22,404 nt of DNA from a virus: positions 1-22,404 of IMG/VR virus record IMGVR_UViG_3300047478_000033; one strand, written 5' to 3'. Position numbers and translations under genes: made by a program. Below, in pieces: positions 2-21,005 of the stretch. The notes beneath the pieces were generated by a model. The model was not told the origin of the DNA. It made no database searches and saw only the letters and a list, made by a program, of their open reading frames with translations. Numbering within the stretch: the stretch's first letter is position 1; each line of letters starts with the position of its first letter.

Positions 2-1066
2 TGGGAAGCCATTAAACGTGCTCTAGACGAGCCTGAGAACCATCCTGAGGTTTGGGGTACCGATGCCCCGTGGTGCATGTTCAGTGCAGCGTACGAGTTG
101 AACCAGGCGTACCTAAGCGGTAATCCTGAGACGTACGAGACTGGTGTGATTGTGCACATGGATGCTACGTGTTCTGGCCTACAGCACTTCTCAGCACTGC
201 TCCGTGACCCTATGGGTGCTACGTACGTGAATCTCATTGACGAAGCTAAGTGTGGTCCTAAGCAGGATATCTACAGTCGTGTGAGTGCTATGGCTCTGCA
301 AGCTATTGCCCTAGACGCTGAAGGTACTGGTGAAGAGGCAGACATGGCTCGCTGGTGGCTGAGTATCGGGATGCCTCGTAGCTTAGCTAAGAAGCCAGTG
401 ATGACGTACGTGTACGGTGCTACAATCCGTGGCACAGCTCAGTTCATTGAGGAGTACGTGTACAAGGAGATGCCGGAAGCGGTGTTCCCTGATCCACTAC
501 GCTCGTACACGTACTGCTCGTACGCTGCTAAGAAACTGTTCGTAGGTATTGCTGCTACAGTCCCTGCTGCGGATAACGCTATGCGATGGTTACGTAGTGT
601 GGCTAAGGAGATGCCTAAGGGTAAACGCATGGAATGGCGTACACCTACAGGGTTCCTAGTGCAACATGACTACCAGGACTACGATGAGCGTATCTTGCAC
701 GTGCATTCCTGTGGTCTAAAGCAGATCACAGTACGGGAGTGGAACGAAGGTACGAAGCCTCTGCAAATGCAGAATGCTCTGTCACCTAATTTCGTACACG
801 CTCTGGATGCTTCGCACCTCACAATGACTGCAAAGCGTATGCATGACAAAGGTCTATTCATGGTAGGTATCCATGATTCATTCGGAACTCACGCATGTAA
901 CGTAGGTATTATGCACGATATAATAAGAGACTCGTTCGTTCAGTTATATTCAAGTCGTAATATCTTAGGTGAGTTCCTTTGGGAAGTAGGCGGCATAGGT
1001 GAACCTCCGATGAGGGGATCATTCGACTTAAAGAATGTTCTAGAATCGGAATTTTTCTTCTGCTAA
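2..1066 (+). CDS. Phage single-subunit DNA-dependent RNA polymerase, C-terminal part (T7 gp1-like), 5' truncated by window
   Basis: This is the catalytic C-terminal part of a T7-type RNA polymerase, which transcribes phage middle and late genes from phage promoters. The frame is open from base 2, so the true start lies outside the window; about 354 residues are visible. Family landmarks are all present. MDATCSGLQHFSALLRD holds the metal-binding aspartate (codon 161-163, T7 D537 equivalent). AKKPVMTYVYGA holds the lysine and tyrosine of the O-helix (389-391 and 413-415, T7 K631/Y639). GIHDSFGTH holds the second metal aspartate (875-877, T7 D812). The C-terminus ESEFFFC matches the terminal hydrophobic foot of the family (T7 FAFA). 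The polymerase lies directly upstream of the structural genes, as in phiKMV-like phages and unlike T7, where it is an early gene. Most tyrosine codons here follow a codon ending in G (GTAC). Confidence 0.97.
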   Translation, partial: WEAIKRALDEPENHPEVWGTDAPWCMFSAAYELNQAYLSGNPETYETGVIVHMDATCSGLQHFSALLRDPMGATYVNLIDEAKCGPKQDIYSRVSAMALQAIALDAEGTGEEADMARWWLSIGMPRSLAKKPVMTYVYGATIRGTAQFIEEYVYKEMPEAVFPDPLRSYTYCSYAAKKLFVGIAATVPAADNAMRWLRSVAKEMPKGKRMEWRTPTGFLVQHDYQDYDERILHVHSCGLKQITVREWNEGTKPLQMQNALSPNFVHALDASHLTMTAKRMHDKGLFMVGIHDSFGTHACNVGIMHDIIRDSFVQLYSSRNILGEFLWEVGGIGEPPMRGSFDLKNVLESEFFFC

Positions 1067-1833: not shown

Positions 1834-2117
1834 GTCTTGACATTACCGGTTATGAAGAGCGTAAGAAGCAAGCTGCTCTAGCTGCTGAAGCTCAAGACCG
1901 TGCTACCAAAGCTGCTCAAGAAGCCGCTAAGGTTGCAGAAGAACAAGCTGCTCAACAAGCAGCGATGCAATCAAACTTTGCAGCAGACTTGACGCAAGAG
2001 AATATCGGCACAGTAGTTGCTGGTGGCTCTGCAGAACAGACGATGGCTACTTCCGATATGAAGAAGAAGTCTAAGCGTGTGTCAGGTCTATCGAGTGCTC
2101 TCGGTATTAACGTATGA
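1803..2117 (+). CDS. Small virion/tail-assembly protein, T7 gp6.7/gp7.3-like, 104 aa
   Basis: The ATG at 1803 lies inside the end of the GNAT gene and has AAAGG about 7 bases upstream. The protein begins MCGGYTGQKL, followed by a long Ala/Gln/Glu/Lys-rich stretch (about residues 22-60) that should form one helix. It ends in a basic tail, MKKKSKRVSGLSSALGINV. The end resembles that of T7 gp7.3 (basic patch, Ser/Gly, GINI), and the MC start recalls T7 gp6.7. Both are small virion proteins ejected with the DNA, and their genes flank the portal gene in T7. The assignment rests on position and these short resemblances. It overlaps the portal gene by 4 bases (ATGA). Confidence 0.55.
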   Translation: MCGGYTGQKLGLDITGYEERKKQAALAAEAQDRATKAAQEAAKVAEEQAAQQAAMQSNFAADLTQENIGTVVAGGSAEQTMATSDMKKKSKRVSGLSSALGINV

Positions 2118-3688
2118 CGAACCGAGTCACGCATAAAGCCTTGTTTGAGAAGTTGCGTGACGATACGGTTGTTCAGAAGAGTGAGCGGTATGCTCACTGG
2201 ACGTTACCGCAACTCATGGCTGACTTCTCAGAGACGAGAGGTACAAGCTCTCTTGTAGTCGAACGGGACTATCAAGAGATTGGAGCTATCCTGGTGAATC
2301 ATCTTGCCAGCAAGCTCGCAGGGTTGCTCTTTCCGAGTAACCGACCGTTCTACCGTATTCAACCGTCTGATGAATTCGTGGGTGCTGCTGAGAAGGCAGG
2401 CGTTAAGAAGACTGAACTAAGCTCTTCTCTAGCACGTCTAGAGATGGAGTCGTGTCAGAACCTCTTCATGAATGCCTCGTACAACCAGCTAGTCACGCTT
2501 CTGAAACATCTGATCATCACAGGTAACGCTTTGCTGTACCGTGACTCAGACGATAAGAAGTGCTCCGTGTACGGACTGCAATCGTTCGTAGTACGGCGTG
2601 ATGGTAAAGGACGTATGGTTGACGGAGTTCTACGTGAGTTCACTTACGTTGAGTCTCTGGACCTTGATATCCAAGAAGCATTGAAGCGTGTGAATAAGAG
2701 TAAGTTCAGTAGACCTGAGCAACAGGTTGAACTGTTCACTCGTATCCATCGTAAAAAGGTGCCTACTGGTCGTGCAATCTATGAGATTACACAAGAGGTC
2801 GATACGATTCCCGTAGGGGAAATGAGTACTTACCCTGAGCATCTGTGTCCCTGGCAGTTCCCTACGTGGAATCTGATCGCAGGTGAGCACTATGGTCGGG
2901 GCATGGTTGAAGATTACGCAGGCGGCTTTGCTCGTTTATCTGATCTGAGTGAATCCCATGCTTTGTACGCTGTTGAAGTAATGCGTGTTGTGCATCTTGT
3001 TGCTGCCGGTTCCGGTACCGATATTGATGACCTCGCTAACGCTGAGACAGGTGAGTACATACGTGGTGATGGTAACTCAGTTCTAGCGCACGAGTCTGGA
3101 GACGCACGTAAACTTGAACAAATTCAACAAATCATTACAGAAGTCTTCCAAAGACTAGCACGTGCATTCATGTACAGTGCGAACACGCGTGACGCAGAAC
3201 GTGTCACAGCGTATGAGTTGAGGCAACAAGCTATCGAGGCAGAGAATGCTTTGGGTGGGGTGTACTCCTCACTTGCAGAAAGCATTCAAGTTCCTCTTGC
3301 ACACATCCTCATGTTCGAAGCTAAGCCGCAAACGCTGGATAGCATCATTCGTGAAGATGTGAAGCTAGACATCATGGCAGGTATCCCTGCTTTAGGTCGA
3401 GCTTCTGATGTGCAGAACCTTGTGCTGGCTGTACAAGAAGCTGCAACTGTTGTGCCTGTGCTTGCACAGATTCAAGCTGCTGATCCTCGGATCGACATTA
3501 AGAAAGTCATGGATATGATTTACGAAGGTCGTTCTGTGGACGTAGACAGAATCTACAAGGATCAGGACACTCTAGATGCAGAGGCTCGTGCTATGGCTCA
3601 GCAACAGCAAGGCCAGGCCCAGATGGGTGCTGCCGTAGATGCTGCGTCTCAACTTGAACAACTTAATCAGATGACCAAAGGTGCGTAA
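2114..3688 (+). CDS. Portal (head-tail connector) protein, T7 gp8-like, 524 aa
   Basis: This is the dodecameric ring at the capsid vertex through which DNA is packaged and ejected. Its length is close to T7 gp8 (about 536). The N-terminal section has the family pattern TRGTSSLVVERDYQEIGAIL, followed by a VNHLASKL-type segment and LFPSNRPFYRI (about residues 40-82). SANTRDAERVTAYELRQQ (about 356-373) matches the conserved region in which T7-type portals have ERVTAEEIR. The C-terminus is Gln/Ala-rich. The start overlaps the preceding stop as ATGA, suggesting translational coupling. Portal, scaffold and capsid follow in the standard podophage order. Confidence 0.95.
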   Translation: MTNRVTHKALFEKLRDDTVVQKSERYAHWTLPQLMADFSETRGTSSLVVERDYQEIGAILVNHLASKLAGLLFPSNRPFYRIQPSDEFVGAAEKAGVKKTELSSSLARLEMESCQNLFMNASYNQLVTLLKHLIITGNALLYRDSDDKKCSVYGLQSFVVRRDGKGRMVDGVLREFTYVESLDLDIQEALKRVNKSKFSRPEQQVELFTRIHRKKVPTGRAIYEITQEVDTIPVGEMSTYPEHLCPWQFPTWNLIAGEHYGRGMVEDYAGGFARLSDLSESHALYAVEVMRVVHLVAAGSGTDIDDLANAETGEYIRGDGNSVLAHESGDARKLEQIQQIITEVFQRLARAFMYSANTRDAERVTAYELRQQAIEAENALGGVYSSLAESIQVPLAHILMFEAKPQTLDSIIREDVKLDIMAGIPALGRASDVQNLVLAVQEAATVVPVLAQIQAADPRIDIKKVMDMIYEGRSVDVDRIYKDQDTLDAEARAMAQQQQGQAQMGAAVDAASQLEQLNQMTKGA

Positions 3689-4580: not shown

Positions 4581-5588
4581 ATGGCTAATACCACTTATGC
4601 TGCTGCAAATACCCGTCCACATTGGGCTGGTACGGATGCCGACCTCGACATCCACCTGGAAATGTACGAAGGCGATATCGAAGGCTCGTTCCGAGTTCAG
4701 TCGATGTTCCGTTCGGAAGGTCTGACTAACTACAAGTCGGTTGCTAATCAATCGAACACCTGGCGTGGTGATCGTATCGGTGGCGTTGCTGTCAAGGGCC
4801 GTACCGCTGGTCAAGCTCTGGATAGCTCGCGTATCGTGAATGAGAAGTTCGTGATCACTGTTGACACGACTTCGTACATCCGTACCCCTGTTGACTACCA
4901 GGATAACTGGACTGCTCCAGACTTCCAAGCTGAGTACTCTGCTGAGCACGGCTCGGCTCATGCTAAGGCATTTGACCAAGCTCACATCATCCAGCTCATT
5001 AAGGCTGGCTCGTGGGTTGCTCCTGCCTCGCTGAAGGCTTCTGGCGCATTCTACGATGGTATCCTGGAAGAAGTCACTGGCTACGCTGCTGAGACCGATG
5101 CTGCTGCTAAGGCAGACCTGCTGGTTCAGAAGCACAAGGAAGTTGTTGCTGAGTTCGTTAAGCGTGACCTTGGTGGTTCGCTCAGCGAGTTCGTAACTCT
5201 GATCACTCCAGATGCTTTCAATGTCCTGCTGGACCACGACAAGCTCATGAACGTACAGTTCAGCGGTAATGACACGGCTGGTAACAGCTTCGTTCGCCGC
5301 CGTATTGCTATGCTGAATGGCTTGCCTGTTATGGAGACTCCACGTTTCCCTACCGGCGCTATCACTTCGCACTTCCTGGGTTCGGCCTTCAATGTGTCGA
5401 GCGCTGAAGCCAAGGCAATGCTGATCGTGTTCCACCCACGTAAGACTCTGGTTACGGTTGAAGCTCAACCTATGACCGTTCGTATGTGGGATGACGAGAA
5501 GGAATTCAACAACGTCCTGGACTCGTACGCAATGTACACCGTAGGTATTAAGCGTGGCGATGCTGTCGCTGTGCTGTCTACGGACTAA
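4581..5588 (+). CDS. Major capsid protein, T7 gp10A-like, 335 aa
   Basis: This is the HK97-fold shell protein. Length and position fit T7 gp10A (345 aa): after the scaffold, before the tail tubes, and followed directly by a strong terminator as in T7. The opening ANTTYAAANTRPHWAG, the GDVEG-like EMYEGDIEGSF (about residues 28-38) and the IRTPVDYQDNW segment match T7-group coat proteins. Codon use is more biased than in any other gene here. Serine is often TCG, leucine CTG or CTC and arginine CGT or CGC, with almost no TTA, CTA or TCA, as expected for the most abundant virion protein. One result is a long antisense open frame over 4542-5468, which is not a gene. Confidence 0.96.
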   Translation: MANTTYAAANTRPHWAGTDADLDIHLEMYEGDIEGSFRVQSMFRSEGLTNYKSVANQSNTWRGDRIGGVAVKGRTAGQALDSSRIVNEKFVITVDTTSYIRTPVDYQDNWTAPDFQAEYSAEHGSAHAKAFDQAHIIQLIKAGSWVAPASLKASGAFYDGILEEVTGYAAETDAAAKADLLVQKHKEVVAEFVKRDLGGSLSEFVTLITPDAFNVLLDHDKLMNVQFSGNDTAGNSFVRRRIAMLNGLPVMETPRFPTGAITSHFLGSAFNVSSAEAKAMLIVFHPRKTLVTVEAQPMTVRMWDDEKEFNNVLDSYAMYTVGIKRGDAVAVLSTD

Positions 5589-6198: not shown

Positions 6199-8541
6199 AT
6201 GTCTGTTTTCGAAAGCTCGTACAAGTCCTTACTACAAGGCGTATCTCAGCAGTTGCCTCGTGAGCGTCTACCTGGACAGGTCGGCTCTCAAGACAACATG
6301 CTCTCCGATCCAGTAACAAACATCCGTAGACGGCCTGGTGCACAGTTCCGGTACAGCATTGAGATGCCTGATGTAACTTCAGACTCAGTGCGTGCATGGT
6401 TCACTGATATAGGTGGATTCAAGGTGCATGTGCTCCTGAACACTGTCACAGGTAGCCTGAAGGTTCTCGATGAAGAGTATGAGCTTCTAGAGTACTTCCC
6501 CGACCAGACGTACCTACAGACCTCTGATGCTTCCCGTATCAGAACAACTACTGTAGGCGATGAGTTCTTTCTAGCTAACGTAGACAAGATTCCGAACGTA
6601 GTGGATAACACTGGCGGTATCAGTCCATCCCGTAGAGGGTACTTCTACATTGCTGCTGGCTCGTTCTCTCGTGGGTACTCTGTGACCATCACTACCAGTG
6701 TAGGGAACATCACAGCTACGTACACTACTCCGTCAGGCACTAATGCCGGTGATGCTGCTGCAAGTACCCCTGAGTACATTGCTACACAACTGGCTAATGC
6801 TCTGGATTCAAACAAGGCTACTGCAGGGCTTACTAAGGTAGTCCGCATTGCCTCGTACGTGTACGTAGAGGGGGCTACAACGACCTCAAACGTAGCGGTG
6901 AATACCAGCACAGGGACAACGTACATTCAAGTCTCCAAAGCCTCTTACACAGCCTTAGAGGGCAATCTCCCTGCTCAGCTTCCTTCGGATGCTGAAGGGT
7001 ACATTATGTCGGTAGGCTCTGTAGCCTCTCCACAGTACTTCAAGTACCAGCACAGCACTACCTCATGGATTGAGTCAGGTGACTGGAACTCTCCAGCGTA
7101 CATTGAGAACATGCCTATCTCCCTCACGTACGAGGATGGTGCCTGGGCTTTAGTTCTTGATGACTTCGAGGGTAGACTCTCAGGTGATGATAAGAGCAAT
7201 CCTGAGCACCGATTCATGACGCATGGTATCTCAGGTATTGGATCGTACCAGGGCAGGCTTGTACTGCTCTCAGGCCCTATGGTGTCTTTGAGTGCAAGCT
7301 CTAATGCTCGGTGGTTCTTCCGTACTACGGTGTCAAGTATTGTGGATAGTGACCCTGTTGAAATTGGTAGTACTGGTAACTCTAGTGCAAGCTATGAGTA
7401 CTGCAAGCCATTCAACAAAGACCTGCTCCTATTTAGTGAGTCTTACCAAGCTCTGATCCCTAGTGCCAGCACAGCACTTACTCCGCGTAATGCGTACGTG
7501 GTGCTTACGAGTACACACGAGACGAGCACACGCTCTGAGCCTGTATCGCTAGGCCGTACCTTGATGTACCCTATGCGCCGCTCAGAAGACTTCTTCGGTG
7601 TTATGGAGATGGTGCCTTCACAGTACACGGACTCTCAGTACATTAGCATTGACAGCACTCAGCATCTACCGAAGTACCTACCAGGCGATTGCCGGTTCTC
7701 TGTTAGCGCCACTGTGGATAACATGGTTCTGTTCGCTCCGTCTGGTGACAAGTACAGCTTGATTGTGCATGAGTACAGTTGGGATGCAGAGAGCAAGGTA
7801 CAACAAGCATGGCATCGTTGGACGTTCCCGTACGAAGTTGCTGGTGCGTACTTTACTAATGCCTTTGTGAATGTGCTGTTCGCTCAAAACGATCATATCG
7901 TAGGTTGCAGCATTGATCCTCGTGTCGGTGTGCTGACGTTCGATGCAGAGCGTAGACCCTTTAGTGACCTGTACGTCATCGCAGAGATCGTAGATAACGT
8001 GATCACCCTTCCTGATTGGATGCTTGACCTAGATCCAGACATCGCTACTAAGCTAGTGGCTGCAGTAGGTGCAGGCGATCTAGCAGGTGATAAGGTCGGC
8101 TTCACTGTAACCAGTCCTAGCACTCTACAGACTGTTCGCTCTTTCCCTTCAGGCTCTGTAGCAATCGGTGTGCCTTACACTTCGAGTATCTCTCCTAATC
8201 CTCCGATCATTAAAGATCAGAACGAGGTGGTGATTAGCTCGAATAAGCTCACTGTGCTACGGTACATGATCGGTACAAAGAACTCGTCTCAGTACGAGGT
8301 TACTGTGCGTGATGCTGCTGCTCCTGATGCTGGTTCTGAAGACGTAGCTACCCTTACATGGAGTAGCACTGAGCTAGACATCAATCGTGGTCGATACGCT
8401 AACGAGAGCATCTCTGTAGTACCATGTAGAACGAATGCACAGAGCACTACAGTTCTGATCAGTACAGATGGTACTGGTGAGTTAAATATCATTTCAATGG
8501 AGTACGTATGCAGGTACAACCAAAAGATCAAACGGAGATAA
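6199..8541 (+). CDS. Tail tubular protein B (nozzle), T7 gp12-like, 780 aa
   Basis: This large beta-rich protein forms the tail nozzle below gp11. Its length is close to T7 gp12 (794). The start ESSYKSLLQGVSQQLPRERL and the nearby GQVGSQDNMLSDPVTNIRRR (about residues 26-45) are the diagnostic N-terminal block of the family. The segment YEYCKPFNKDLLLFSESYQA (about 398-417) is another family-like block. The gene follows AAGAGG and overlaps the next gene by 34 bases. Tyrosine codons here again mostly sit in GTAC contexts. Confidence 0.95.
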   Translation: MSVFESSYKSLLQGVSQQLPRERLPGQVGSQDNMLSDPVTNIRRRPGAQFRYSIEMPDVTSDSVRAWFTDIGGFKVHVLLNTVTGSLKVLDEEYELLEYFPDQTYLQTSDASRIRTTTVGDEFFLANVDKIPNVVDNTGGISPSRRGYFYIAAGSFSRGYSVTITTSVGNITATYTTPSGTNAGDAAASTPEYIATQLANALDSNKATAGLTKVVRIASYVYVEGATTTSNVAVNTSTGTTYIQVSKASYTALEGNLPAQLPSDAEGYIMSVGSVASPQYFKYQHSTTSWIESGDWNSPAYIENMPISLTYEDGAWALVLDDFEGRLSGDDKSNPEHRFMTHGISGIGSYQGRLVLLSGPMVSLSASSNARWFFRTTVSSIVDSDPVEIGSTGNSSASYEYCKPFNKDLLLFSESYQALIPSASTALTPRNAYVVLTSTHETSTRSEPVSLGRTLMYPMRRSEDFFGVMEMVPSQYTDSQYISIDSTQHLPKYLPGDCRFSVSATVDNMVLFAPSGDKYSLIVHEYSWDAESKVQQAWHRWTFPYEVAGAYFTNAFVNVLFAQNDHIVGCSIDPRVGVLTFDAERRPFSDLYVIAEIVDNVITLPDWMLDLDPDIATKLVAAVGAGDLAGDKVGFTVTSPSTLQTVRSFPSGSVAIGVPYTSSISPNPPIIKDQNEVVISSNKLTVLRYMIGTKNSSQYEVTVRDAAAPDAGSEDVATLTWSSTELDINRGRYANESISVVPCRTNAQSTTVLISTDGTGELNIISMEYVCRYNQKIKRR

Positions 8542-8957: not shown

Positions 8958-9550
8958 CGTGGGCATTAGTTGCCGTAGGCACTGTTGCCGTGGGTACTGC
9001 AGTGCAGAGTGCATCTGCTTCGAACTCTGCAGTGGCTCAAGGTGCACGGGCCAGTATCCAACAGAACAAGCAGATCACTGCACAGAACGAGGCTTCTGTA
9101 GAAGCTAACCTAAAGAACACCGTACGTACTGGATATCGTGTAGGTATTTTGAATGTACAGCAAGCTCAGATGAATCGTGAAGCTATTCAAAAGGGCTTTG
9201 ACATCTCTGCAGCACAAGTTAATGCATTCGGAGCTGTTGATGCTAATCAAGCCGCTGTAGGAGCTATCGGGGCAAGTGCTCAGGCTGTGTTGAATGATGT
9301 GCGTATGCGTGCTGGTGAAGCGCAAGCTCAGAACCTTGAAGATTGGCAGATTCAGAAATTCAACTTTAACAACCAGCTTGCTGATCTTGTATTCCAAGGT
9401 ACCTCAGCTCTTAGTGGCTCTCAAGCTGCTACTGAGTTCGATGCTCCTAGCACTGGTGAAACAGTCAAGTCAGCTCTTGTGGCTGGCACTATTGCAGCTA
9501 CTACCATGTACGCTACATCACAGTTCAAGTTAGGTGCAGGAGGTAAGTAA
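8954..9550 (+). CDS. Internal virion protein, T7 gp14-like, 198 aa
   Basis: Size (T7 gp14 196 aa), order (before two very large internal proteins) and composition identify it. There is a hydrophobic N-terminal segment (about residues 3-20, LVAVGTVAVGTAV), then a long Ala/Gln/Asn-rich helical region with QQAQMNREAIQ and QAQNLEDWQIQK. In T7, gp14 leaves the capsid and inserts in the outer membrane as the first part of the DNA ejection conduit. The start overlaps the cupin gene stop as ATGA. The last base of its stop is the first base of the next start (TAATG). Confidence 0.85.
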   Translation: MTWALVAVGTVAVGTAVQSASASNSAVAQGARASIQQNKQITAQNEASVEANLKNTVRTGYRVGILNVQQAQMNREAIQKGFDISAAQVNAFGAVDANQAAVGAIGASAQAVLNDVRMRAGEAQAQNLEDWQIQKFNFNNQLADLVFQGTSALSGSQAATEFDAPSTGETVKSALVAGTIAATTMYATSQFKLGAGGK

Positions 9551-12222
9551 TGGTAGAACGTGTATCAAAGCCTGTTGATTTTAATACAGGCCGACAAACT
9601 CAAGTGCAGTCTGCTGGTGGTGGCATTGCACCTATGCGTGTACAAGGTACGTCTCGTGAGATTTATGTAGATCAAGGGCGAATGAGTTCTTTGGGTTCCC
9701 TCATTGGTAAGTCTATGACTGAGGTCGGGGTAGCTGCGTTTGATCGTGCTACTACCGATGCATACCTAAAGGGCGCTGCACAGTTAGGTAAGGTAGAGTC
9801 TGAAGCTGATCTAGAGACAGACCCACTTACCAGTAACTGGACTAAGGCTGGCTACCGAGACTCAGCATTCAAGCTCGCACATGCTGCTGAGCTGAACAAG
9901 CTGAACACCGAGATGGAAGACCTACGTACGCAGAGCCTAGATGTGTTCGATGCCCGTATGCAAGAGTTCAGAGGTAAGATGGTTAGTCAGCTAGATGGTA
10001 TGTCATCGCAGGCTCGGCAACAAGCGGTCTCCCAACTAGCAAGCACTCAAGAGCTGGCGTACAATGCGTACACACGCGAGCATAAGAACTACACTACTGG
10101 TGTAGATGCCTCTGCTGCTAACGCCTCCTTTAACACTGTCTTTAATATGCTTCAGGATGCCCGTACAAAGGGCACGCCTCAAGAGTACATGAATGCTACT
10201 AAGGCCGTGCTGGACAACGTAACAGGGCTGTACACAAATAAAAGACTACCACAGAATATCCGTGATAACCTTGTGTACGATGCTGCTAGGATGGCTATTG
10301 AGTCAGGTGATACTGCACTGTGGGGAGCTATGAAACAGCTTCCTTATGACACAGGCGATGGTACTACATCTCCTCTGTTAGATAGACTCCCGTACCAAAT
10401 GCAAACTAAGCTGGCTGACATAGCTCGTCAAGCTCAACAGAGCAGCATGACTGATGCAAAGATGGGGTACCTGGACACGTTAGCTAAGGTCGATGCAGCT
10501 ATGGCTACAGGTCAACCTATTGATGTAGCTAGTACTAAGGCTTTGCTAGATCAGGGTGTGAACAATAAGTGGATCACTGCTGGGGCGTATCACGCTAGCT
10601 TGCAGAGCATGTACATTGCTGTTGACAAGCAGAAGGGTGGTGCTGCGATTATCCAGAACTACCAGACCTCTGTAGTCGGTGATGCTGACTTAGCCGGTAA
10701 GACTAAGAAGGAAGTGCGTGATGCTTGGGTATCTCAGTTGTACCGCTCTGGTAAGTCTGATGATCAAGTGATTGATGCTCTAATTGTGAATGGTACTAAG
10801 GTAGGCAATGTGGAGTCTCTGGAACTGGTAGGTGCAAGTGTTAAGCCTATCATGCAGAAGCTATCATCTGCTGATGCTGCTCCTCTTAACGAGGTAGAGA
10901 ATGCTCGCCTATCTAAGGTGCTCACTACGCTGAACGAACTCACTGTGCAGAACAAGCAAGGTGCTGTTGCAGCTATGCTGTCAGGTATGCCTGAAGAGCA
11001 ACGCGTGTTCATGGAAACTGTACGCACTAAGGTAGCTGGTGGTATCCTGAACGATACTGCTATTCGTGAGGCTGGTTCGCAACTGCGTGCTGCTTCTACG
11101 ATGTCTGCTAAGGATCGTGCTGCGTTGTACGAGAATCAATCTAAGGATGATTCTACGAAAGTACAAGACCTTGTTAAGGGTGGTTTCACAAGCTGGCTAG
11201 GCACTAAGTTCACACTGGGTGCTCAAGGTGACTTGCGTTCACAACTCGTAACACAACGTAGCACTGGTGTAATGGCTACTGCTATGCTAGAAGAGATGCG
11301 TTCTCTAGGCGTAGCTAACCCAGGCACTACTGCTGATGTACGATTCAATGTAGCTATGGCTAACGTGTCACAACGTCTAGTACCTACTGGAGACTACCAG
11401 ATGCTTATGCCTAAGGGCGTAAGTGTTCAACAGTTCTTTGGTGTCGATGCTACGCAAAGTAATGAACGTGTTGGACAAGCTCTTCAAGGCATTGCTAAGA
11501 AGATTCCTGAGTTCAAGGATAAGGCACTGTACTTCACACCTGGTGTTGATGGTCGTGTGCAGATTGATGCGTGGAGCAAGGATCGTGGTGAAGAGGGTGC
11601 AGCAATGTTCCAGTCATTCACGGTCGAGGCTTCACAAGTCAAAGAAGAACTCAAGGGTATGGATGCTAATCTAGCTGAGAAGTCTAAGCGTATCTTTGGT
11701 GATGGTAAGACGTTCACTCAAGGTGCTGCCTCTGTGACATTCAATGGCATGTCTAGTACGACAGTTGACCCTAACGCTATGTATCGGTTCCGTAGTAACC
11801 TAGTGAAGAGTGAAGGTGTACGGGATACTGTGTACAAGGACTCGCAAGGTAATCCTACTGCTGGTGTTGGTGTAGCTAATGAGTTCATGCCTAAGCCAGG
11901 TCCTGATGGTAAGATCAGTCAACAAGACATCAACCTATCGTTTGCTAAAGCATCTGACGCTGCAGCTAATGCTGCTGTGAAGATTCAGAATCAAACTGGT
12001 CTACGTGGTGATAAGTGGTTCATGCTAGTAGGTGAGCTTGCGTATCAATCAGGCCCAGGCTTCGCTGCGCTACCGCAGTATCAGGGTATGTTAAGTGCGA
12101 TCCGTACAGGTGATGTAGCTACAGCTACTGCAGCTTTGCAGAAGACTCCAGCGTACCGTATGTCTGGACCAGAGCGTAAGACGCATTACGAGCGATTGCT
12201 TAGCACTGCGATGAATAATTGA
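9550..12222 (+). CDS. Internal virion protein with C-terminal GH24 lysozyme domain (phiKMV gp36-like), 890 aa
   Basis: This ejected internal protein holds the position of T7 gp15 and carries a peptidoglycan-cleaving domain at its C-terminus. The catalytic triad of T4-type lysozymes is visible: E755 in LVKSEGVRD, D764 in VYKDSQG and T770 in NPTAGVGV. The E-8-D-5-T spacing is exact. The preceding 740 residues are mostly helical and Gln/Ala-rich, as in gp15-like proteins. phiKMV gp36 has the same layout (about 898 aa), whereas T7 carries a transglycosylase on gp16 instead. The enzyme would open the wall locally for the ejection tube. A strong AGGAGG lies at 9538-9543. Confidence 0.92.
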   Translation: MVERVSKPVDFNTGRQTQVQSAGGGIAPMRVQGTSREIYVDQGRMSSLGSLIGKSMTEVGVAAFDRATTDAYLKGAAQLGKVESEADLETDPLTSNWTKAGYRDSAFKLAHAAELNKLNTEMEDLRTQSLDVFDARMQEFRGKMVSQLDGMSSQARQQAVSQLASTQELAYNAYTREHKNYTTGVDASAANASFNTVFNMLQDARTKGTPQEYMNATKAVLDNVTGLYTNKRLPQNIRDNLVYDAARMAIESGDTALWGAMKQLPYDTGDGTTSPLLDRLPYQMQTKLADIARQAQQSSMTDAKMGYLDTLAKVDAAMATGQPIDVASTKALLDQGVNNKWITAGAYHASLQSMYIAVDKQKGGAAIIQNYQTSVVGDADLAGKTKKEVRDAWVSQLYRSGKSDDQVIDALIVNGTKVGNVESLELVGASVKPIMQKLSSADAAPLNEVENARLSKVLTTLNELTVQNKQGAVAAMLSGMPEEQRVFMETVRTKVAGGILNDTAIREAGSQLRAASTMSAKDRAALYENQSKDDSTKVQDLVKGGFTSWLGTKFTLGAQGDLRSQLVTQRSTGVMATAMLEEMRSLGVANPGTTADVRFNVAMANVSQRLVPTGDYQMLMPKGVSVQQFFGVDATQSNERVGQALQGIAKKIPEFKDKALYFTPGVDGRVQIDAWSKDRGEEGAAMFQSFTVEASQVKEELKGMDANLAEKSKRIFGDGKTFTQGAASVTFNGMSSTTVDPNAMYRFRSNLVKSEGVRDTVYKDSQGNPTAGVGVANEFMPKPGPDGKISQQDINLSFAKASDAAANAAVKIQNQTGLRGDKWFMLVGELAYQSGPGFAALPQYQGMLSAIRTGDVATATAALQKTPAYRMSGPERKTHYERLLSTAMNN

Positions 12223-12232
12223 AAGGATAGTA

Positions 12233-15178
12233 ATGGCTGAAATTGCACCAGCATTAGGGCAGACCCTAGAGGCTGCTCAAGGTGCGGCAATTCGAGCTGA
12301 AGCTAACAGAGAGCGTGCCAGTCCCCTTGTAGGGGCTGGTGCTGCTGTCTCTGGATGGGCTACATCGGATGTGTACCGCTGGATCACTAAGCCGGACTTC
12401 GGTGCTGCTGATCCGAACTTCGATGCTCAGACGAGTATCAATCAAGTACCATTCAACCTGAATGACGATGACCGAGAGTTCCTCTTGAAGAGCAACAACT
12501 CGGAGTCTTGGCAGTACAACCTGAAGGCTATCCAAGACCAGCGTGAACGATACAAGGCTATGGGAGACTCTCCTATTACCTCGTTCATGGTCGGTATGAT
12601 TGACCCTGTGTACCTTGCTGCTGATGCCGCTTCATTCGGTGCAGCTAGGTTCGTTACTGCAGGTAGGGCTGCAAAGGCCGCTGTAGGGGCTACAGGAGCC
12701 GCAGGAGCATCTCTGGCTATCTCAGGTATAGCAAGTGAAGTTCGCCCTGTAGGGACGCAGGAAATCATTCTGGACGCATTGTTCAATGCTGGTGCTACTG
12801 GTGTGGCTGCTGGTATAGGTGGACAGCTCCGTAAGGTCGATAATGACTTTAATGGGGATGTGCTACAGAGCACGCTACAGAAGCCTGCTCCTGCCGGTAT
12901 CACAGGTAGTCTAGATAATGCTGCTACGGTAGCTGAGACACAGGCTCGTACACTGTCAGAGAAGTTCGCTGATGGTTTGTCATGGAGTGTGCACTCGTCA
13001 CTGTCTAAGTACGATCCTGCTCTAGCTGATCGTCTCGTAAGCAACATTCGCTCTAAGTCGGTTTCTGCTGAAGATGAAATCTTCGGTATCCGTAGAGAAC
13101 TAAGTACAGCACAGTTCGAATTTGAAGACCTACTGAAGGGTGCTTTGGATGAACGTGGTGCAGGGATCATGGCGCGTATCTTCAAGAAGGACGCTACGAA
13201 GATTCAGCGTGACCTTGAGAACGAAGTAGCTATGGAGATGTGGCGTAGGGAGAGTCTCGTTAACCGTGGACTTGAAGTCACTCCAGCCAATGTGAATCCT
13301 CGCGTTACAGCGATTGCTGATGCTCTGGATAAAGTGAACGCTCTGGCTGCTGACACACTACGTAAGTCTGGTGTAGAAGGTGCTGAGCAGATCGTACCTC
13401 GTTCAGGCTGGTTCAGTCGTTCGTGGAACGCTTCTAAGTACAACGATGTAGTAGAAGCCTTGACTCGTTCAGGCAAGACCCTACAGGAAGCTGAGAAAGC
13501 TGTGAAGGGTCTTGTGACTCGTTCATTGCGTCTAGCTAATGCGGACATGCCTGATGAGGTTGCTAAGGATATTGCAGCTAGCACAATCAATCGTATGAAG
13601 CGTAAGGGTGAGCACGCTGATCCTATTTTCTTCACACGTAAGGATAGTGCTGAGTACAATGCCTTCCGAGACATTATGCGTGAGGAAGGTGTTCCTGAGG
13701 AACGTATCACTCGTGCATTGGATTACCTCACAGGTGCTAAGGCTGAGAAGGGTAAAGCTGCATTCTTAAAGCATCGTGTTGATTTAGATTACCGTGCTGC
13801 TCTTGATGTTAATGGGCAGATGTTCCGTGTAGTGGATATGTTCGACACTGGACTCACTACGATCACAGAACGATACCTGGATGGTGTAGCTGGTAAGGCT
13901 GGCTTTGCTCGTGCAGGTATGAACTCTGAGAAGGCTATTCAGCAATTCCGTGATGAGTTAGTTCAGAAGATGCGTGCTAAGGAAACTGATCCTAATGTAA
14001 TCGCTCGGGAAGAGAAGCTCATTGACAATACGATCCAACATCTCCAGGGTAAACCTGCTGGTGAGGAGATGAGTCAGATCGTACGCTTAGGACAGTCCTG
14101 GGCAAGGTCTGTAGCTCTAAGTGCTTCAGGTCTATGGCAGGTTACTGAGTATGCTCCAGCAATGGCACACTACGGTGCAATTAAAACACTGAAGTACGCT
14201 ATGCAGGAACTGCCTGTACTACGGAAGCTCTTTACAAAGATCAGTGAGAACGCTGGCACCAGTACTAAGCTGAAAGATATCTTAGCTCGTAGTGCGTACC
14301 AGGACACACGTATTCGTCCGTTCATTCAACGATTCGAAGATGGCTTTGCCATTCCCGAGTCCGAGATGGCCTTAATGAAGATGCAGCAAGCATCTCAATT
14401 AGTCCCGTACTTTAATGCTATGAAGTACGTACAGCACCACCAGTCTCGTGTTATTGCGAATCTAGTAATAGACCGAATTTCTGACGCTGTGCGTGGTGAT
14501 GCTAGAGCATTCAAGAACTTAGAGAAGTACGGACTGTCCACGGATATAATGGAGAGCTTACGCTCTGACATTACAAAGTACGGATTAGATACCGCTAAGT
14601 GGACTGATGGCACTTGGGAAGCAGTACGCCCTGTGTTCATTAAGATGATGGATGAGAGTGTTCTTAAGGCTCGCTTAGGTGAGACTCCAGCATTCGCTGC
14701 GTTTGATAACGTAGGGAAGTTCCTGTTCAGTTTCCGTAGCTTTACCTTAGCTGCACATAATAAGATTTTAATGGGTACTGCAGGCCGTGATGGTTTCGGT
14801 CCCCTTGCCTTAATTATGATGTGGCAGTTCCCTCTAGCGATGATCGCTACACAAGCTAATGAAGTTGCACGTGGTAGAGAGCCTCTAGAAATGGATAAGC
14901 TCGCTGCTAAGGCTGTAGGTCAAGTAGGCTCGTTAGGACTTCTATCTGAAGTTGCTAAGGTGTTTACAGGTGAGTCCCGTCAATGGGGTAGCCCTGGCCT
15001 GATTGCTTTAGATCGTAGTATCTCGTTCCTAGGAACAGGTGCTGCAGCTATCAAAGCTGAGATGAATGGCGATGATGCAAACTGGGGTAAGGTAGGAGCT
15101 GCTGCTATGGCTGTTACACCTGTACTCGGCATGGCTCCTTTGAGCGGTGCTTTACAAACTCTTTTGAAGACGGATTAA
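12233..15178 (+). CDS. Largest internal virion protein, T7 gp16 / phiKMV gp37-like, 981 aa
   Basis: This third ejection protein spans the inner membrane during infection in T7-type phages. Position, great length and two hydrophobic stretches support the call: an Ala/Gly-rich one near residues 145-170 and GFGPLALIMMWQFPLAMIAT near 853-872. No lytic transglycosylase motif was seen at the N-terminus, which explains why it is shorter than T7 gp16 (1318). The lysozyme function sits on the preceding protein. SLGLLSEVAKVFTGESRQWG and the Ala/Gly-rich tail resemble the C-termini of gp16-like proteins. AAAGGA precedes the ATG. Confidence 0.88.
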   Translation: MAEIAPALGQTLEAAQGAAIRAEANRERASPLVGAGAAVSGWATSDVYRWITKPDFGAADPNFDAQTSINQVPFNLNDDDREFLLKSNNSESWQYNLKAIQDQRERYKAMGDSPITSFMVGMIDPVYLAADAASFGAARFVTAGRAAKAAVGATGAAGASLAISGIASEVRPVGTQEIILDALFNAGATGVAAGIGGQLRKVDNDFNGDVLQSTLQKPAPAGITGSLDNAATVAETQARTLSEKFADGLSWSVHSSLSKYDPALADRLVSNIRSKSVSAEDEIFGIRRELSTAQFEFEDLLKGALDERGAGIMARIFKKDATKIQRDLENEVAMEMWRRESLVNRGLEVTPANVNPRVTAIADALDKVNALAADTLRKSGVEGAEQIVPRSGWFSRSWNASKYNDVVEALTRSGKTLQEAEKAVKGLVTRSLRLANADMPDEVAKDIAASTINRMKRKGEHADPIFFTRKDSAEYNAFRDIMREEGVPEERITRALDYLTGAKAEKGKAAFLKHRVDLDYRAALDVNGQMFRVVDMFDTGLTTITERYLDGVAGKAGFARAGMNSEKAIQQFRDELVQKMRAKETDPNVIAREEKLIDNTIQHLQGKPAGEEMSQIVRLGQSWARSVALSASGLWQVTEYAPAMAHYGAIKTLKYAMQELPVLRKLFTKISENAGTSTKLKDILARSAYQDTRIRPFIQRFEDGFAIPESEMALMKMQQASQLVPYFNAMKYVQHHQSRVIANLVIDRISDAVRGDARAFKNLEKYGLSTDIMESLRSDITKYGLDTAKWTDGTWEAVRPVFIKMMDESVLKARLGETPAFAAFDNVGKFLFSFRSFTLAAHNKILMGTAGRDGFGPLALIMMWQFPLAMIATQANEVARGREPLEMDKLAAKAVGQVGSLGLLSEVAKVFTGESRQWGSPGLIALDRSISFLGTGAAAIKAEMNGDDANWGKVGAAAMAVTPVLGMAPLSGALQTLLKTD

Positions 15179-18951: not shown

Positions 18952-19239
18952 ATGGCAAGCTCAGCTTCGTCTAAGGAGTTGGAAGCGCTACACCGCTTAG
19001 TAGCTAGTTCACTTACTAAGCGCATTGAAGAAGACATGCGTGATGGCATCCCCACGGATGCTGCCACGCTGTCCAGTGCTATCAAGTTCCTGAAAGACAA
19101 TTCAATTACTGCTGATCCTGCAGATGCTGATGACCTCAGTGCTCTGCGAGATAAGCTGAAACAACAGATTGGCAAGAACACTGTAGGGAATGTAATCTCC
19201 CTTGCGACTGCTGATCTACAGGAAGGTACTAACGGATAA
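18952..19239 (+). CDS. Terminase small subunit (DNA maturase A), T7 gp18-like, 95 aa
   Basis: It recognises concatemeric DNA and recruits the large terminase subunit. Size (T7 gp18 about 89) and position directly before the large subunit identify it. The sequence is helical, with ELEALHRLVASSLTKRIEED and TDAATLSSAIKFLKDNSITA (about residues 35-54), a pattern shared with maturase A of phiKMV-like phages. AGGA lies about 7 bases before the ATG. Its stop and the next start share one base (TAATG). Confidence 0.9.
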   Translation: MASSASSKELEALHRLVASSLTKRIEEDMRDGIPTDAATLSSAIKFLKDNSITADPADADDLSALRDKLKQQIGKNTVGNVISLATADLQEGTNG

Positions 19240-21005
19240 TGGACATCAAGCAGCGTTTCTCTCACGTAGCACTCCTTGCTGAGCACTACGAACGCTTCTC
19301 TGATTTCGCCAGAGACGGCATGGCTTTCTTAGGGTTCAGTCTAACCTGGATGCAAGAAGACATCTGCGAGTTCATGCAGGATGGTCCTCGCTTGCGTATG
19401 GTGATGGCTCAGCGGGGCGAGGCTAAGAGTACCTTAGCTGCGCTGTACGCTGTGTGGTGCATTGTGCACAGGCCTAGTACACGTACCCTAGTGGTATCTG
19501 CCGGTGAGACTCAAGCTAATGAAGTGAGTACCCTGATTGTCCGACTGATTATGCAGTGGGATATTCTGGAGTGCTTACGTCCTGATAAGCGTATGGGTGA
19601 CAGAACCTCTGTTGAGGCATTCGATGTGCACTACGCTTTGAAGGGGCTGGATAAGTCTCCCTCTGTTGCGTGCGTGGGCATCACATCGAACCTTCCAGGC
19701 AAGCGTGCTGACCTTCTAATACCGGATGATATTGAGTCCCCTAAGAACGGCCTCACTGTGACACAACGTACAATGCTGCTGCAGCTCACTAAAGAGTTCG
19801 GTAGTATCTGTACGCACGGTGACATCCTGTACCTAGGCACGCCACAGTCTAAGGACTCGGTGTACAACTCTTTACCTGGGCGTGGGTACAGCATTCGTAT
19901 TTGGCCTGGGCGTTACCCTACTCAAGATGAGATGGAGAAGTACGGTGATAGACTTGCCCCAAGTATTACGGAACGCGTTCTTGCAGACTCCTCCCTCCAA
20001 AAGGGCGGGGGCATTGACGGTACCCGTGGTAAACCAACAGACCTTGAACGATACACAGAATCGGCGCTTGTCGAGAAAGAGTTAGACAAGGGACCTGAGG
20101 ACTTCAGCTTGCAGTACATGCTAGATACCTCGTTGCTGGATGCACAGCGCCAGCAGTTGAAACTTAGTGACCTGCTGGTTGCGAATTTTGATGCTGACAG
20201 TATCCCTGAGATTATCGCGTATCAAGCTGCTCCGAAGTACCAAGTGGAACTCAGCAATGACTTTCCTATCTATGGTACTAAGATGTACTACCCCGCTCCT
20301 GTGGATTGCGCTTTCGTAAAGCCAACTGAGGTATTCATGTTCATTGACCCTGCCGGTGGCGGTGCTGATGAACTTGCATTCGGTGTGAGCTGTGCAGTAG
20401 GTCCGTACATTCATGTTCTAGATGTTGGTGGTTTGAAGGGTGGCCTCTCTGGAGATAACCCTGAGAAACTCTGCCGGATCATTAAGGACTTGAACGTAAC
20501 TGAGATCGTGTGCGAATCCAACATGGGGCATGGCCTGTTCGAGATGACATTACGGGCTGAGCTACAGAAACGTGAGCTTATGCATGTAGGTGTAAAGGGT
20601 GAGTACAGTACTGGGCAGAAGGAGAAGCGAATCATTGATTCTCTAGTCTCGCCTATGCAACGTCACCGTATCGTCTTGCACAAGCGTGTATTCGACTCTG
20701 ATAGAGAGTACGGTAAGCAGCACAGCATTGAGGCTCGCCCTCAGTACAGTCTGTTCTACCAGATAAGCAACATCACTACAGACAGGAACTCGCTACCACA
20801 TGATGACCGTATCGAAGGCTTAGCCGGATGCGTGCGTAAGTGGAAGGGTGTCCTAATGACCGATGAGCACAAGGCCGCTGAACAGCGAGCGCTTGCAGCT
20901 GTCACTGACTTCATGCGTGATCCTATGGGGTACGGAAACAGAGGAGATAAACCTGCCTCTGGTGTACGTGCGTTCCTGCAGTCACGAAAACTAAAGAGAC
21001 GGTAA
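19239..21005 (+). CDS. Terminase large subunit (DNA maturase B), T7 gp19-like, 588 aa
   Basis: This is the ATP-driven packaging motor and nuclease. Its length equals T7 gp19 (about 586). The ATPase domain shows Walker A at residues 58-65 (QRGEAKST) and a VVSAGETQANE segment after it. Walker B is near residues 157-166 (ADLLIPDDIES). The nuclease domain has MFIDPAGGGADELAFG around residues 366-381, with the metal-binding aspartate, and the later EIVCESNMGHG. The C-terminus is basic. It is translationally linked to both neighbours through single-base TAATG overlaps. Confidence 0.97.
   Translation: MDIKQRFSHVALLAEHYERFSDFARDGMAFLGFSLTWMQEDICEFMQDGPRLRMVMAQRGEAKSTLAALYAVWCIVHRPSTRTLVVSAGETQANEVSTLIVRLIMQWDILECLRPDKRMGDRTSVEAFDVHYALKGLDKSPSVACVGITSNLPGKRADLLIPDDIESPKNGLTVTQRTMLLQLTKEFGSICTHGDILYLGTPQSKDSVYNSLPGRGYSIRIWPGRYPTQDEMEKYGDRLAPSITERVLADSSLQKGGGIDGTRGKPTDLERYTESALVEKELDKGPEDFSLQYMLDTSLLDAQRQQLKLSDLLVANFDADSIPEIIAYQAAPKYQVELSNDFPIYGTKMYYPAPVDCAFVKPTEVFMFIDPAGGGADELAFGVSCAVGPYIHVLDVGGLKGGLSGDNPEKLCRIIKDLNVTEIVCESNMGHGLFEMTLRAELQKRELMHVGVKGEYSTGQKEKRIIDSLVSPMQRHRIVLHKRVFDSDREYGKQHSIEARPQYSLFYQISNITTDRNSLPHDDRIEGLAGCVRKWKGVLMTDEHKAAEQRALAAVTDFMRDPMGYGNRGDKPASGVRAFLQSRKLKRR

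Follow-up and report, generated by a model that had tools for sequence, protein, structure and literature searches.

A preference for G-ending codons before tyrosine in a T7-like phage contig and its relatives

Bacterial genes tend to avoid certain codons just in front of tyrosine; in a survey of 119 ORFeomes, GCG>UAC, GUA>UAC, UUG>UAC and AUG>UAU came out among the most general negative codon pairs (PMC1952141). Ribosomes translating the Salmonella his leader stall at UCA-UAU and UCA-UAC about as strongly as at a stop codon, an effect due to context and not to the supply of tRNA-Tyr (PMC4046918), and the modifications Q34 and ms2i6A37 of tRNA-Tyr affect frameshifting at tyrosine codons (PMC13326639). 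We describe here a phage contig in which most tyrosines are preceded by a codon ending in G, and compare it with related phages, with more distant ones and with bacterial genes.

The contig and the size of the bias

The carrier of the bias is a viral contig of 22.4 kb, the whole of which (22,404 nucleotides) is called the window hereafter. Its main genes all lie on the + strand, with a single-subunit RNA polymerase just upstream of the structural genes; their order is RNA polymerase C-terminus, portal, scaffold, capsid, tail tube A and B, internal virion proteins, fibre and terminase (Table 1; ORFs were called mechanically, with a length of at least 100 aa). The closest named phages by portal protein belong to the Krylovirinae (Autographiviridae), at about 56% identity. 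Judged by its gene order, its PHROG matches and its portal matches, the carrier is a T7-like, Krylovirinae-like member of the Autographiviridae.

Table 1. Main features of the window, with their PHROG matches and the share of their tyrosines that follow an NNG codon.
Feature	Position	Strand	Match or basis	Tyr after NNG
Single-subunit phage RNA polymerase, C-terminal part	2..1066	+	PHROG 414, E 5e-116	11/15
Portal / head-tail connector	2114..3688	+	PHROG 449, E 1e-162	9/18
Major capsid protein	4581..5588	+	PHROG 267, E 1e-76	5/10
Tail tubular protein B / nozzle	6199..8541	+	PHROG 457, E 4e-191	33/39 (densest case)
Internal virion protein with lysozyme motif	9550..12222	+	PHROG 2083, E 1e-73	17/25
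Long ORF, probable second internal virion protein by position	12233..15178	+	Gene order of Misse and phiKMV	13/18
Terminase large subunit	19239..21005	+	PHROG 17672, E 1e-134	14/21

An earlier note on this DNA had counted an NNG-TAC junction at 11 of the 15 tyrosines of the polymerase fragment, and our recount agrees exactly (GCG twice, ACG four times, GTG twice, TCG twice and GAG once). The figure of 11 out of 12 where a G-ending codon was possible is exact as well, since among the other four tyrosines only TTA-TAT had such an option, and the pattern does recur, as claimed, in the portal, nozzle and internal virion genes (Table 1). The pattern is real, and it is stronger across the window than was first stated. 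A G-ending codon precedes 156 of the 231 window tyrosines, for an overall third-position G of 24.4%. TAC accounts for 200 of these tyrosine codons (87%) and TAT for 31, with a G in front of 142 and 14 of them, respectively; when only residues that can take a G-ending codon are considered (Met and Trp excluded), such a codon is found before 138 tyrosines out of 175. A codon- and amino-acid-preserving shuffle bears this out: with synonymous codons shuffled within each gene over 500 rounds, keeping the amino acids and the within-gene codon usage fixed, 65 ± 5 G|TAC are expected for the 142 observed, and all in-gene GTAC taken together amount to 255 vs. 161 ± 9 in the shuffles (maximum 192).

Alanine before tyrosine is GCG in 20 cases out of 22 (64/787 elsewhere; Fisher p = 5e-19), and valine is GTG in all 15 cases (145/514 elsewhere). 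The Mantel-Haenszel odds ratio for a G-ending codon before TAY reaches 14.6 in the window, with a value above 1 for each of 11 preceding residues (Ala, Val, Thr, Ser, Pro, Gly, Leu, Arg, Lys, Glu and Gln). One has to keep in mind that GC3 varies widely among these phages; odds ratios were stratified by genome and by preceding codon box, and these within-genome strata remove the contribution of base composition.

The window has other peculiarities of codon choice. GTA is its commonest valine codon (178/529), though the other four-fold boxes do not favour A-ending codons; strong junction biases were also seen for C|TCT (odds ratio of 4.2), C|TCG (4.9) and A|GGY (2.2-3.0), and both G|G and T|T are broadly avoided at codon boundaries.

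Reading frame and the decoded codon

The earlier note had also called GTAC strongly over-represented, which holds for the in-frame junction but much less for the tetranucleotide: no other of the 16 four-base palindromes is as over-represented in the window, yet GTAC amounts to only 1.21 times its maximal-order Markov expectation (257 vs. 213). That first rank would suit a DNA site enriched as such, be it a modification target, a packaging or protection motif or an anti-restriction mimic, but the excess is found only where a codon meets a tyrosine codon. By frame, the observed and shuffled counts are 142 vs. 65 for G|TAC and 71 vs. 53 and 42 vs. 43 for the other two; the 71 vs. 53 reflects a preference for T in front of AC that holds irrespective of the preceding base and is, hence, not peculiar to GTAC. 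When 14 related phages are pooled, GTA|C (1.23) and xGT|AC (1.05) match their controls NCA|C (1.19) and x[CT]T|AC (1.18), whereas G|TAC stands at 1.85 and G|TAT is enriched too, at 1.65 (2.16 in the window). With in-frame G|TAC at 1.93, out-of-frame GTAC stays at control levels, and depletions follow the frame in the same way: in a pool of 19 phages, A|TAC and T|TAC fall to 0.38 and 0.45 in frame, while out of frame ATAC and TTAC stand at 0.93 and 1.00. A G bias was looked for before TAA and TAG stops and none was seen (G 1.04 and A 1.35 before TAA, vs. G 1.85 and A 0.32 before TAC). The effect also exceeds that at other T-starting codons 9-fold (odds ratio of 9.0 for TAY against them), so it is not merely a G|T junction.

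The excess is confined to the in-frame codon-tyrosine junction, and the GTAC palindrome is incidental. An excess at this junction only, TAT included, together with normal out-of-frame GTAC, ATAC and TTAC and unbiased stops, makes a DNA motif, a modification site or a mutational context unlikely. Among the readings that had been offered for the enrichment, a codon-pair effect agrees with these results, as it is frame-specific, includes TAT and is missing before stop codons; a DNA modification target, or selection on the palindrome itself, does not, since the other two frames match their controls, and we give such a DNA site next to no chance.

Neighbour-dependent mutation by the phage replication machinery could also put a G before TA. 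The dominance of TAC (87% of tyrosine codons), which is the reverse complement of GTA, would fit a strand-symmetric mutation, and TAC is indeed commoner after G than TAT is (Fisher p 0.007). We nevertheless see very little chance for this explanation, as the signal is frame-specific, as TAA and TAG lack a preceding G bias and as the third base of the next codon matters (CAY vs. CAR, AAY vs. AAR). The depletion of A|TAC and T|TAC in frame only is what one would expect if phages were avoiding an in-frame, ribosome-linked cleavage of the mRNA at UAY codons without a preceding G; however, TAC itself is the favoured tyrosine codon, we know of no such UAY-cleaving nuclease in these phages or across hosts so diverse, and the idea seems to us scarcely credible.

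Other candidates were tried and rejected: a rule calling for a strong base (C or G) in front of weak A-site codons, because C|TAC lies below 1 (0.77 in frame, pool of 19); the avoidance of antisense stop codons, because A|TA is the most avoided although it forms no antisense stop; and the misreading of UAY by release factors, which leaves the effects at Asn, His and Phe unexplained.

In the window, the comparisons for a preceding G give 3.8 for His (CAY vs. CAR), 2.6 for Asn (AAY vs. AAR) and 1.2, not significant, for Asp. Across 24 phages, those within a clade not being independent, the tyrosine effect covaries with AAY>AAR (rho 0.77, p 1e-5), with CAY>CAR (0.57) and with TTY>TTR (0.61); its covariation with four-box pyrimidine/purine controls in the same 24 phages is not significant. 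The Asp effect is weak, positive in 92% of phages, and does not covary with that of Tyr. With CAY and CAR, and AAY and AAR, behaving differently and with no such bias before the stops, the signal depends on the decoded A-site codon and not on nucleotides alone.

On the P-site side, the G-versus-A odds ratio before TAY reaches 11.4 for the window and 5.7 for the Krylovirinae set. In E. coli, the NNA and NNG codons of Val, of Ala, of Lys and of Glu share a single tRNA in each case; a G-versus-A effect despite a shared tRNA implies that the identity of the P-site tRNA is not the cause, and it is the wobble-position base of the mRNA, rather than the P-site tRNA, that appears to carry the effect. 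The queuosine set consists of the codons read by tRNAs with a GUN anticodon, namely those of Tyr, His, Asn and Asp; a G preference was found for Tyr, Asn and His, and for Phe too. As the Phe codons (UUY) lie outside the queuosine set and Asp does not covary with Tyr, the grouping by GUN tRNA is imperfect.

Phages, bacteria and gene classes

Compared with the 14.6 of the window, the odds ratio before TAY is 6.1 in the Krylovirinae set (picked by sequence similarity, and taking in Proteus and Providencia phages whose formal subfamily may be another), 1.5 in T7-like Studiervirinae, 0.72 in lambda-like phages, 0.66 in E. coli and 0.46 in Proteobacteria, the bacterial yardsticks being stretches around one metal-efflux gene and not whole genomes, which makes them non-random (a Pseudomonas plasmid stretch with plant-pathogen effector genes was left out). 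Genome by genome, it goes from 23 in Proteus phage PM16, 19 in a relative at 82%, 15 in the window and 13 in Providencia phage PS3 to 6.0 in a Sphaerotilus phage, 4.5 in Pseudomonas phage Misse, 3.9 in a Macromonas phage, 1.7 in T7 and 1.6 in phiKMV, and down to 0.65 in Pseudomonas phage gh-1, where C is preferred, and 0.63 in E. coli. Expressed as observed/expected G before tyrosine, all 20 IMG/VR relatives counted lie between 1.44 and 2.81, with a median of 1.27 in 72 T7-like Studiervirinae, 1.02 in T4-like phages, 0.79 in lambda-like phages and 0.76 in E. coli. The trait is common to Krylovirinae and related T7-like phages, to a varying degree, and is extreme in the window phage, its 82% relative and the Proteus and Providencia phages. 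No class is avoided more than A|TAY, whose odds ratio is 0.1-0.4 in most of the strong phages. Elsewhere, C is preferred before tyrosine in gh-1 (odds ratio of 3.0), SP6 (1.9) and N4 (2.3), and a few T4-like phages prefer G (2.6-3.1), though most do not.

Some bacteria might carry such a bias, in which case a phage could be copying the codon context of its host, and a host-adaptation signature had indeed been suggested. Bacterial genes are, however, biased the other way (Proteobacteria 0.46, E. coli 0.66), even if these yardsticks may not be the true host; about 80 proteobacterial and plasmid loci have a median observed/expected of 0.59, with 4% above 1, mostly on small tyrosine counts, and Comamonadaceae loci lie mostly below 1, yet the Sphaerotilus and Macromonas phages reach odds ratios of 6.0 and 3.9. 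With GCG>UAC also among the most generally negative pairs of the 119 ORFeomes (PMC1952141), these phages invert the usual rule, and host copying has, in our view, little chance of being the explanation.

The preference persists as genes diverge. From the window to Misse, G was retained before tyrosine in 26/32 cases vs. 98/184 elsewhere, and from PM16 to PS3 in 61/74 vs. 161/312; between PM16 and PS3, a non-G base became G in 13/26 cases before tyrosine vs. 225/1577 elsewhere. These codon counts show a frame-specific, tyrosine-centred codon-pair preference that is maintained between lineages. The bias extends to every gene class and differs little between the early, middle and late genes of three full genomes, and a restriction to late genes, tried as a candidate, fails in these same genomes. 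Its strength does not rise with likely expression (capsid 2.0, RNA polymerase 2.2), a rise that a pure speed model might predict; for the major capsid protein, the pooled relatives have 35 tyrosines after NNG vs. 17 expected. High expression as the explanation was rejected, as it fails for tyrosine in 37 highly expressed E. coli genes (ribosomal proteins, EF-Tu, EF-G, RpoABC, SecY, SecE and NusG), where G before Tyr stands at 0.96 and G before TTC at 1.43.

Some observations concern neighbouring subjects. Highly expressed E. coli genes avoid T before TTC (0.52), unlike average genes, and the same context before Phe is seen in T7 and in the window. In T7, G|ATC is nearly missing at codon junctions (observed/expected 0.08), in line with general GATC avoidance, and this was used as the positive control for the avoidance of a site. 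In Misse, positions 11450-12121 are annotated as a tRNA nucleotidyltransferase, which may hint that the tRNA pool of the host matters to this phage.

A proposed translational rule and its known counterparts

We favour, at roughly 60%, a P-site/A-site codon-pair rule of translation, by which synonymous codons before tyrosine would have been selected to end in G, with the same preference, weaker, before Asn, His and Phe and marginally before Asp. A G-ending P-site codon next to an incoming tRNA with a GUN (queuosine-type) anticodon might make tyrosine decoding faster or safer, and neighbours ending in A or U might slow it or make it error-prone; virulent phages, which have little time per cycle, could then have optimised the neighbouring codon. 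Points against this reading are the absence of the tyrosine preference from highly expressed E. coli genes (0.96), which favour G only before TTC, and the C preference of gh-1 and SP6, which are virulent T7-like phages as well.

The rule might instead adapt the phages to a tRNA pool that is threatened or altered during infection: defence nucleases, or changes in Q34 and ms2i6A37, would hit GUN tRNAs such as tRNA-Tyr, and a G neighbour would limit the damage. The affected codons are mainly read by GUN tRNAs, queuosine rises late in infection by a Shewanella phage whose late genes prefer UAC (PMC9963407), and phages are reported to evade retrons by making specific tRNAs, tRNA-Tyr figuring prominently in that report (PMC11555353). 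In the window and ten relatives, tRNA genes were searched for and none were found, which fits such an adaptation and dismisses phage-encoded tRNAs as the cause. Since Phe is affected too and the effect is already there in early genes, we regard this adaptation as unlikely, albeit with some weight. A more specific version, in which infection or host defence alters the abundance of GUN tRNAs or their Q34/A37 modification and phage genomes are rewritten at the neighbouring wobble position, giving the inverted rule, would be doubtful.

By the standards of codon bias, odds near 15-fold at synonymous positions correspond to strong selection, with a sign opposite to the bacterial rule. Proteus, Providencia, Pseudomonas and Sphaerotilus phages offer cultivable natural examples for the long-debated cause of codon-pair bias; moreover, the rule sets the virulent T7-like phages of this group apart from bacterial genes and from lambda-like temperate phages, and may help in classifying viral contigs. 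We found no earlier report of a G-before-tyrosine rule in phages in the open-access literature, which does not prove its absence.

Codon-pair bias is already known as a kind; the present strength and the reversed sign are new. As in bacterial ORFeomes (PMC1952141, PMC2585594), the synonymous choice depends on the neighbouring codon, chiefly through the third base of the first codon and through which codon comes second, but GCG>UAC and UUG>UAC are among the most general negative pairs there, NNG-UAC being the strongest positive context here, and nnGUnn is missing from the preferred patterns that PMC2585594 lists as conserved. An A-ending codon before tyrosine is likewise penalised in the Salmonella his leader (PMC4046918); this is, however, a reporter result for the UCA neighbour only, whereas the phage pattern is genome-wide and involves all neighbours, U-ending ones included. 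The Shewanella phage (PMC9963407) is also virulent and also involves tyrosine codons and GUN tRNAs, but there the choice is TAC over TAT in late genes, and here it bears on the preceding codon, in all genes. Finally, the TTC context of T7 and of highly expressed E. coli genes resembles the present one in that G is favoured and T avoided before TTC, unlike the tyrosine rule, which is missing in those E. coli genes and weak in T7.
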